Part shown: piece after piece, positions 44,645 through 48,760 of the stretch | Numbering within the stretch: position 1 is the first letter of the stretch | How the letters are laid out: every line of letters starts with the position of its first letter | NCBI RefSeq assembly: GCF_024345975.1 | Contig: NZ_JAGQCD010000003.1 | Coordinates: 124,001-188,000, forward strand | Direction: 5' to 3' | Length of the DNA: 64,000 bases | Origin: Cyanobium sp. Cruz-8D1 | GTDB lineage: Bacteria; Cyanobacteriota; Cyanobacteriia; PCC-6307; Cyanobiaceae | Program-made: the position numbers and the translations under genes | The notes under the pieces: model-generated | What the model saw: the letters and a program-made list of their open reading frames with translations, nothing else | What the model was told of the DNA's origin: nothing | The model's database searches: none

Positions 44645-45946
<1,302 letters not shown>

Positions 45947-46016: not shown

Positions 46017-46520
46017 TCAGAGGCGGCGGCGGAACCCTTCGCTGAAGCTGGCGCTGCGATCGTCGCGATCGCCATCGGCACTGCGGCTGAGCTTCCACAC
46101 GTTGCGCCCCAGGCGACGGGCCGTGAGTCCGCCCCGCTCCACCAGCGGCGCCCCCGGCCGGGCGCCCATCAGCTGGGCCACCTCGGCGGTGCTCAGGGGG
46201 GCGCCGGTGCGAATGGCCAGGTCGGTGATCTCAAGCCGCTGGCGCAGGCCCCCCAGATCGACCGGGTGGTCCGCTTCGCCGGTCTCCTTCCAGTCAGCGA
46301 AGCCGTCGCCAGCGACGCTGCCCATGCGCCGCATCAGGCCCAGGCCGATGAAGGCGAGGGCCTGCTCCGGCCGCACCCCCTCATCCAGCGCCCGGGTGAT
46401 CCATTCGGACACGGTGTCCTGGTCCAGGGAGGGTCGCAGCGGATGGGTCTCCCCCGCCACCCCGGCGGCCGGGGATTCGTTGCTGGAAGAAGGTGCGGAA
46501 GCGCTGCGCCGGGTGGTCAT
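46017..46520 (-). CDS. hypothetical protein with possible helix-turn-helix, upstream of chlN
   Basis: 167 residues from ATG 46520. The N-terminal 40 residues are polar and disordered. The middle is helical (VSEWITRALDEGVRPEQALAFIGLGLMRRMG). The C-terminal segment (LSTAEVAQLMGARPGAPLVERGGLTARRLGRNVWKLSR) looks like a winged-helix or helix-turn-helix. Same strand and just upstream of chlN (73 bases), so it may be co-transcribed with DPOR or regulate it. Not a recognised family. Confidence 0.72.
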   Translation of the reverse strand: MTTRRSASAPSSSNESPAAGVAGETHPLRPSLDQDTVSEWITRALDEGVRPEQALAFIGLGLMRRMGSVAGDGFADWKETGEADHPVDLGGLRQRLEITDLAIRTGAPLSTAEVAQLMGARPGAPLVERGGLTARRLGRNVWKLSRSADGDRDDRSASFSEGFRRRL

Positions 46521-46766
46521 GGTTGCGCCTGTGAAGGTTGTCCTGGAAGGTATCGGCTGGCTTCGGTCCCGCAAGGGTCCCTGGGCCCCGAAGCCCCTCT
46601 GCAGCACAATGAATTCAGGTCTGATCGACCCACCGATCGCGTGCACTGCCGAGGGCCTCCACTCAGTGCCTCCCCCGTTCACATCATGGACCGTTCTCTC
46701 CATCGGCCCTGCGAACATTCCGCCTCCCAGGGCCGATACGATGCGACCTCAACGCAGGAGAAACCG

Positions 46767-47810
46767 ATAGAGATCACACCCGGTGTGTGGTGGGTAGGTG
46801 TGCGGCTGGATAAGGATCATGTCCAGTGCCCCACCTAGTTCCTCGCCAACGGTTCGGAGGGGGGTGCTGATCGATCCTGGCTCGCCACTCACGAGCGAAG
46901 GCACCCTGGCCAAGCTGCGAACCAGCACCGATCTCGGTGCGATCCGCTGGCTCGTCTGTCACCACTCCGACCCCGACATCTGCGCCGCCCTGCCCAGGCT
47001 GGGCGAAGTCCTGACACACCCTGAGATTCAGGTGGTGACGGAGTGGCGCGCCAATGCCCTGATCCGTCATTACGGCCATCGTTTCTCCACCGACCTGGTG
47101 GAGCAGCACGATTGATGCCTGCCCCTGCTGGGGGGTCGGCGGCTGGAATTCCAGCTGACCCCGTACCTCCACTTTCCTGGGGCCATGGTTTCGTAGGACA
47201 CCCTCAGCCACACCCTGTTCTCTATCGCCCCGCAGCACGGCCACATCGACGCGGCGATGCGCCCGTGGCTGGACCATCTGCTGGAGGATCAGCGCCATGC
47301 CCACGCGGTGGCCGCCCTCAACACGGCGGCGCTCTGCGATCCGCTCACGGGCCTGGCCAACCGCCGAGCCCTCGATGGAGCGAAGCTGCCACCCAGCCAC
47401 TCCCTGATCGAGCTGGATCTCGACCATTTCAAGCAGGTCAACGACAGCTTCGGCCACGACGCCGGCGACCGGGTTCTCAAGCAGGTAGCCAAGGCCCTGA
47501 GGGAATCGGTGCGGGAGCAGGACCAGACTTTCCGGCTCGGCAGCGAGGAGTTCCTGGTGCTGCTGCCGGAGGCCGACCAGGCCACGGCCCTGATGGTGGC
47601 GGAACGGATCCGTCTCTCGATGCACCCACTCGACCTCGCTTGTGAAGCCCCCGAGGGGCACCTCACGGTCCGCCTGGGGGTGAGCACCAAACCGGCCCAG
47701 CTCCCTTCCGATTTCTCCCAGCTGATGGAGCTCGCCGACCAGGCGCTCCATGCCGCCAAAGGGGAAGGCCGCAAGCGGGTCTGCGCCGCTGATTCCCTGT
47801 CCACGAGCAG
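46767..47810 (+). pseudogene. decayed diiron metallo-beta-lactamase-fold / GGDEF fusion
   Basis: A broken gene for a fusion of an ODP-type (oxygen-binding diiron, metallo-beta-lactamase fold) domain with a GGDEF domain. Segments in order: EITPGVWWVGVRLDKDH, then GVLIDPGSPLTSEGT, RWLVCHHSDPDICAALP, EWRANALIRHYGHRFS, LEFQLTPYLHFPGAMVS, then GGDEF parts CDPLTGLANRRALD and RLGSEEFLVLLPEA. Damage: an AGGAG ribosome site (46756-46760) is followed by ATA at 46767 where ATG is expected; TAG at 46836; an extra G in the run near 46860 shifts the frame; TGA at 47113 and TAG at 47194 interrupt the next frame; the domain end before GGDEF is shortened; the final stop is lost. The active-site loop reads GSEEF, not GGDEF. 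The 3' limit is approximate. Confidence 0.82.
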
Positions 47811-47959
47811 CCGCTGGGCCGGGATAGCCCCTGGCAACGCCACCCTCGGGAGTACCCTCCAGGTCTGGATTGCCCTAAGGGGCGGCCAGGGATCCCGGCG
47901 TTTCAACCACCCGGCGATCGACACGACCGTCCTCTCGGGAGTTGGCGCCTGGCGCCGTG

Positions 47960-48760
47960 ATGGATCCGCAGGCTGCCCGTTCCTTCCTTCGCGACGACCG
48001 GTCGGACGCCAGACGACGGGCCGCGAATCTGCGCATCACCGGCACCGATGTGAGCGGCAAGGCCTCCGGGGCCAGCTGCGTGATCACCACCGACAGCGAA
48101 GGCAGGCGCCTGGCGCGTCAGTCCAGCCACGTGCAGTCGATCGAGCTGCGCACCTACGTCTTCCTGGATTCCCTCCAGCCCCAGCTGGCGTCGTACATGG
48201 GCACGGTGTCCCATGGCTTCCTGCCGATTCCTGGCGATGCCTGCCTCTGGCTGGAGGTGTCCCCCGGCATGGCGGTGCACCGGGTCACCGACATCGCCCT
48301 CAAGGCCAGCACGGTGCGGCTCGGCCAGATGGTGGTGGAGCGGGCCTTCGGCTCCCTGGCCCTCTACCACCGCGATCAGAGCAACGTGCTCCACTCCGGT
48401 GACGTGGTCCTGGAGGCCATCGGCAGCCGGGTGGAGCTGCGCAGCCGCTGTGAGGTGACCTGGACCGAGATCATCCGGGCGATCACCCCCGACCATGCCG
48501 TGCTGATCAACCGCCAGAACCGCCGCGGCTCGATGATCCAGGCCGGCATGAGCATGTTCATCCTTGAGACCGAGCCGGCCGGTTACGTGTTGATCGCCGC
48601 CAATGAGGCGGAGAAGGGCTCCAACATCACCGTGGTCGACGTCAAGGCCGTCGGTGCCTTCGGCCGCCTCACCCTGGCGGGCAAGGAGGGCGATGTGGAG
48701 GAGGCCGCCGCCGCCGCCATGCGCGCCGTGGCCCAGATCAACGCCGGCGCTGGCGCCTGA
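47960..48760 (+). CDS. csoS1D: tandem-BMC shell protein CsoS1D
   Basis: 266 residues from ATG 47960. Two BMC domains in one chain form a pseudohexamer in the alpha-carboxysome shell with a large gated pore in known homologues. First domain [22 protein letters not shown]; second with [37 protein letters not shown] and [24 protein letters not shown], which closes the fold. It lies upstream of the cso operon as in other alpha-cyanobacteria. It converges on rdgB with a 4-base gap. Confidence 0.9.

Follow-up and report, generated by a model that had tools for sequence, protein, structure and literature searches.

The closest described systems link oxygen or redox sensing to signalling in several ways. 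In globin-coupled diguanylate cyclases, such as E. coli DosC, oxygen sensing is tied to c-di-GMP through a haem sensor, as opposed to the putative diiron site considered here. In Bhr-DGC of V. cholerae, the redox state of the haemerythrin diiron center sets the cyclase activity (PMC9388753). ODP is the oxygen sensor for chemotaxis in T. denticola (PMC7666581). The gene described here encodes, in its intact form, an ODP domain followed by a linker and a GGDEF domain; no description of ODP-GGDEF proteins was found in the literature searched. Its decayed copy lies in a 64,000-nucleotide stretch of the genome of the freshwater cyanobacterium Cyanobium sp. Cruz-8D1 (the window; positions 124,001 to 188,000 of contig NZ_JAGQCD010000003.1).

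The intact protein and its relatives

The initial annotation called for a search for an intact fusion in close relatives and would have been refuted by the lack of one; ten species of the genus do carry such a protein, of about 570 residues, at this site. One of them is the nearest relative, Cyanobium sp. Aljojuca 7A6 (G026, the sister), whose ODP stretch is 92% identical. Few members of the family have the gene (14 of 251 genomes).

The intact ortholog matches PF19583 with E 1.1e-46 over 194 of 194 positions (Pfam). Both by profile comparison and by predicted fold the ODP part is closest to the chemotaxis ODP (6qrq/6qwo; profile E 4e-21, TM 0.78–0.81); over 6qrq, 6qwo and 6r9n together the TM values are 0.77–0.81. 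It has the same fold and PQHG motif as the chemotaxis ODP (6qrq, 6qwo, 6qnm, 6r9n) and likewise has no flavodoxin domain. The H-x-D-x-D, H, D, H ligands (H93, D95, D97, H162, D181, H240) align with those of 6qrq in most intact copies, while the window copy lacks D181. Known ODPs work with chemotaxis proteins, whereas this one is joined to a cyclase in a single protein. The flavodiiron proteins (FprA, Flv1/Flv3) have the metallo-β-lactamase diiron fold in common with it at about 25–35% identity, but they carry flavodoxin domains in place of GGDEF and reduce O2 or NO. Bhr-DGC works on a similar principle, in that its C-terminal GGDEF domain is controlled by a non-haem diiron sensor, but its haemerythrin has an unrelated fold and other ligands, and the parallel is one of analogy only.

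The predicted model of the intact protein has a mean pLDDT of 83 and a pTM of 0.48, and because of the latter the domain arrangement is unsure. Residues from about 271 to 384 are predicted to form an α/β domain, for which no Pfam match was found. Over its whole length the predicted fold is most like those of phytochrome-linked cyclases, a faint hint that the linker domain might be GAF/PHY-like. The intact orthologs carry GGEEF and therefore have the GG(D/E)EF signature of the cyclase.

By analogy with the solved ODP chemotaxis sensors, we infer that the metallo-β-lactamase-fold domain, with its H-x-D-x-D / H / D / H site, probably binds two irons and probably senses O2, peroxide, NO or the iron redox state. 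The linker domain would then pass the change in the sensor on to the C-terminal GGDEF domain, which, with its GGEEF loop and RxxD inhibitory site, would make c-di-GMP from GTP. The likeness to the ODP oxygen sensor, taken with the Bhr-DGC parallel, makes O2/redox control of c-di-GMP by the intact protein likely.

Full-length ODP-GGDEF homologs outside the cyanobacteria (43–55% identity; L072, L074, L077, L080) occur in Actinomycetota, mostly in metagenome bins. The nearest relatives, also in this phylum and many of them from such bins, reach 50–55%, which suggests lateral transfer between Actinomycetota and cyanobacteria. A gene tree built for the direction of transfer supports the cyanobacterial clade at 61/87 and gives no direction.

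Lesions in the window copy

The features of the locus are as follows.

44645–45943, − strand: chlN, intact, flanking the locus on the other side (locus comparison)
46017–46718: ORF between chlN and the ODP-GGDEF gene
46686–47817, + strand: pseudogene of the 570-residue ODP-linker-GGDEF protein, from surviving ATG to mutated stop (alignment to intact orthologs)
46767–46769, + strand: ATA, Ile28, in motif P[I/V]EI (alignment to orthologs)
46821–47255, + strand: ODP diiron domain remnant (PF19583); H93, D95, D97, H162 and H240 readable, D181 deleted
46836–46838, + strand: premature TAG, codon 51 (Tyr51) (alignment to sister and all copies)
about 46859–46864, + strand: one-base insertion (extra G) in a G run, frameshift (same alignment)
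47113–47115, + strand: premature TGA, codon 143 (Trp143) (same alignment)
47194–47196, + strand: premature TAG, codon 170 (Tyr170) (same alignment)
47223–47224, + strand: junction of deletion 1, 168 bp, in frame (ortholog alignment)
47254–47255, uncertain by a few bp, + strand: junction of deletion 2, 414 bp, in frame (ortholog alignment)
47329–47778, + strand: GGDEF domain remnant (Pfam and ortholog alignment)
47815–47817, + strand: former stop, now TGG (alignment and ORF)
47960–48760, + strand: csoS1D (BMC shell protein), intact, conserved neighbour (locus comparison)

Lesions were called by alignment to the intact sister and to all copies of the gene. The premature stops at 46836, 47113 and 47194 and the extra G near 46860, all pointed out in the initial annotation, which was largely right, are seen against the intact orthologs. 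So is the loss of the final stop, TAA in the sister, as a result of which the frame continues to 48402, over csoS1D in another frame. The start of the gene had been misplaced. The ATA at 46767 was taken for a lost ATG, but it is the codon of a conserved isoleucine, and a lost start codon is ruled out by the orthologous ATG (MDRSLHRPC...), which is kept in frame at 46686; the gene therefore spans 46686–47817 rather than 46767–47810. A shortened linker had also been proposed; the linker is indeed gone, but the description was imprecise, as there are two deletions. The first takes the SDLFGGF...HQHYMPS stretch, including the metal ligand Asp181, and the second takes the linker domain between ODP and GGDEF.

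When 46767–47850 was translated through its stops, the product matched PF19583 (E 2.9e-25, positions 6–133) and PF00990 (GGDEF, E about 3.6e-37 to 1.8e-36) in Pfam, as expected for a decayed ODP-GGDEF fusion. The window copy cannot be made as one protein. The cyclase loop at 47539–47553 reads GSEEF, as was first noted, against GGEEF in intact copies, and the window copy thus lacks the GG(D/E)EF signature. The I-site RxxD (REQD, 47512–47523) can still be read in the sequence.

Both large deletions keep the frame, which counts against the pseudogene reading. Set against its intact orthologs at this site, the copy nevertheless carries lesions that disable it, and the damage is confined to this gene, its neighbours being intact across the 17 species compared below. 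In that survey of neighbours the row for the ODP-GGDEF gene itself came from a query that was too long and is no evidence. There is little doubt that a gene for a soluble sensor diguanylate cyclase has truly become a pseudogene here; it is a dispensable gene with at least six independent losses. Its decay is fairly recent, as originally suggested, since the sister gene is intact and the segments are still readable in order. Stop-codon read-through or recoding was rejected because the lesions are not common to different species.

Repeated loss among 17 species

Seventeen species of the clade were compared at the chlN–csoS1D junction (in G012, chlN sits on another contig). The gene is intact in ten (G026, G004, G012, G013, G006, G008, G018, G003, G062, G014), broken in six (the window genome G000, G060, G025, G009, G023, G002) and absent from G028, where the chlN–csoS1D gap is just 825 bp. 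On a tree built from eight neighbour genes (8052 columns) the broken tips are scattered; five pair with intact sisters (G026, G004, G012, G003, G018; bootstrap 84–100), and G002 branches apart. In the alignment of all copies, no disabling stop or indel is common to any two broken ones; a 3-bp length variant that broken copies share occurs in intact copies too. The gene was therefore inactivated separately in at least six lineages, by differing stops, frameshifts and deletions. This independent breakage in six of 17 species, five of them beside an intact sister, is what is new here, although it makes a real yet fairly ordinary case of repeated loss.

Two further copies are altered in other ways. 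In Cyanobium sp. CACIAM 14 (G014, L044) the frame is open and GGEEF is kept, but the metal site is probably dead because of H93N, D97E, D181G and H240Q. In a genome of another genus (G086), an IS1595-type transposase (L056, 7853–8806) separates the ODP-linker part from the GGDEF part.

Pairwise dN/dS is 0.19–0.25 between intact copies, 0.34–0.88 between broken and intact copies (0.35 for the window and its sister) and 0.05–0.09 in neighbouring genes. Branch-specific relaxation is clear for G009 and G023. Three-taxon counts on the window branch give 27 nonsynonymous to 24 synonymous changes against 15 to 16 in the sister, with no clear difference, so that most of this branch may predate the inactivation or recombination may blur the signal. 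Of the sites that do not vary among intact copies, 14 of 231 have changed in the window, including H49P, Y51*, W143* and G480S, and 9 of 338 in the intact sister. In the GGDEF part (47255–47660) the window is 87–93% identical to G004/G012 versus 81–93% to the sister, a mosaic indicating that recombination touched either the window or the sister.

The mutation spectrum was counted in 46686–47817 and its counterparts in L053, L046, L048 and L047. At codon positions 1 and 2 these broken copies show 42 A:T>C:G transversions, at 1315 A/T sites, versus 21 A:T>G:C transitions. In the non-coding flanks there are 17 A:T>C:G changes in 632 lineage-sites, a rate and ratio similar to those of the broken copies. 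The excess thus fits relaxed constraint and seems to be the spectrum of neutral change in these GC-rich genomes; a special mutational process is ruled out by the flanks.

Two other cyclases of the sister were traced through the 17 species as a comparison. A PAS-GGDEF protein of 686 residues has its full length in 13 species, and the other four have a truncated copy or none; a second cyclase, of about 290 residues, is missing in four genomes, including that of the window, and shortened in others (its query began upstream of the likely start, and stops seen with it are no evidence). Turnover is therefore general among the cyclase genes of this group, and the ODP-GGDEF gene is at its high end.

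The high number of events might raise the suspicion that the loss was driven by selection, for example against c-di-GMP when oxygen is high or under laboratory cultivation, and not by drift of a gene that is dispensable: the six independent inactivations are joined by the absence, the IS1595 insertion in the other genus and the ligand-less copy. Selection is an unlikely explanation, given that the spectrum fits neutral decay, that the many accumulated missense changes speak against recent laboratory loss and that several of these genomes also have truncated copies, or none, of the comparison cyclases.

The shortened frame raises the question of whether a GGDEF-only protein is still made from the ATG at 47257 and is active as a cyclase or c-di-GMP receptor; the open frame 47257–48402 does hold a whole GGDEF domain with its RxxD site. 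This is quite improbable: GGEEF has become GSEEF, the conserved Y432, S523, Y549 and D557 are changed, and the frame has no stop of its own and runs into csoS1D out of frame. Other broken copies offer no equivalent piece, those of G023, G025 and G009 having deletions in the GGDEF part.

Sequencing or assembly errors could make an intact gene look broken, and some lesions are single bases, one within a homopolymer run, but this has hardly any likelihood when a single gene between clean neighbours has three premature stops, a frameshift, a missing final stop and two deletions, of 168 and 414 bp, and when five other independently sequenced species, one of which (G023) is assembled as a single contig, have lesions of their own.

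Both the window genome and that of its sister have 19 GGDEF matches; in the former the remnant is probably among them, and about 18 other GGDEF genes are kept. Together with the turnover of other cyclases in these genomes, this means that c-di-GMP signalling is not lost. The initial suggestion of changed c-di-GMP signalling in this lineage was overstated, the gene having been lost in other lineages as well.

The carboxysome neighbourhood

In this Cyanobium group the ODP-GGDEF gene stands just upstream of csoS1D in a carboxysome/Ci-uptake locus. In Vulcanococcus limneticus (L055, 7306–10384) the intact gene immediately precedes csoS1D and the rdgB-sbtA-sbtB-csoS1 run, while the other side is occupied by the NDH-1 and ChpXY CO2-uptake genes and not by chlN. 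In Synechococcus sp. CS-1328 and Cyanobium sp. FGCU52 the gene is located elsewhere, and neither csoS1D nor chlN adjoins it. The linkage, in two genera only, is thus to the carbon-concentration locus, and DPOR looks incidental.

Since the conserved neighbour is csoS1D, the link to DPOR drawn at first is not supported, and a dedicated regulator of DPOR (chlNBL), for which the proximity to chlN in this group speaks, is scarcely plausible when chlN is on the opposite strand with another ORF between, is not beside the gene in Vulcanococcus or elsewhere, and chlNBL is intact in lineages without a working gene.

Two other observations concern this locus. A near-invariant GGGAGTACCCTCC motif (47848–47860) precedes csoS1D in almost all of the 17 species, including G028, which has no ODP-GGDEF gene, and might serve the carboxysome genes as a promoter or operator. 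In Cyanobium sp. Cruz CV13-4-11 (G025, L046), about 4.7 kb of extra DNA between csoS1D and rdgB splits the carboxysome/Ci-uptake locus.

The position beside csoS1D raises the idea, for which the chances are slim, that the ODP-GGDEF protein couples O2/redox to carbon concentration via c-di-GMP in freshwater picocyanobacteria; no such link through c-di-GMP was found in the literature searched. If it were true, the repeated losses would mark lineages no longer needing the coupling, and the pairs of broken and intact sisters would be a natural test of it.

The window thus holds a real pseudogene of a sensor cyclase whose kind is known, and the way in which the losses recur independently is of mild interest. 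As a pseudogene it is ordinary, and its value is comparative: in each of five sequenced sister pairs, a single sensor cyclase gene next to the carboxysome locus is intact in one species and broken in the other. These pairs constitute a natural experiment, which bears on the role of an ODP-type diguanylate cyclase in oxygenic phototrophs and on the rate at which c-di-GMP genes turn over.
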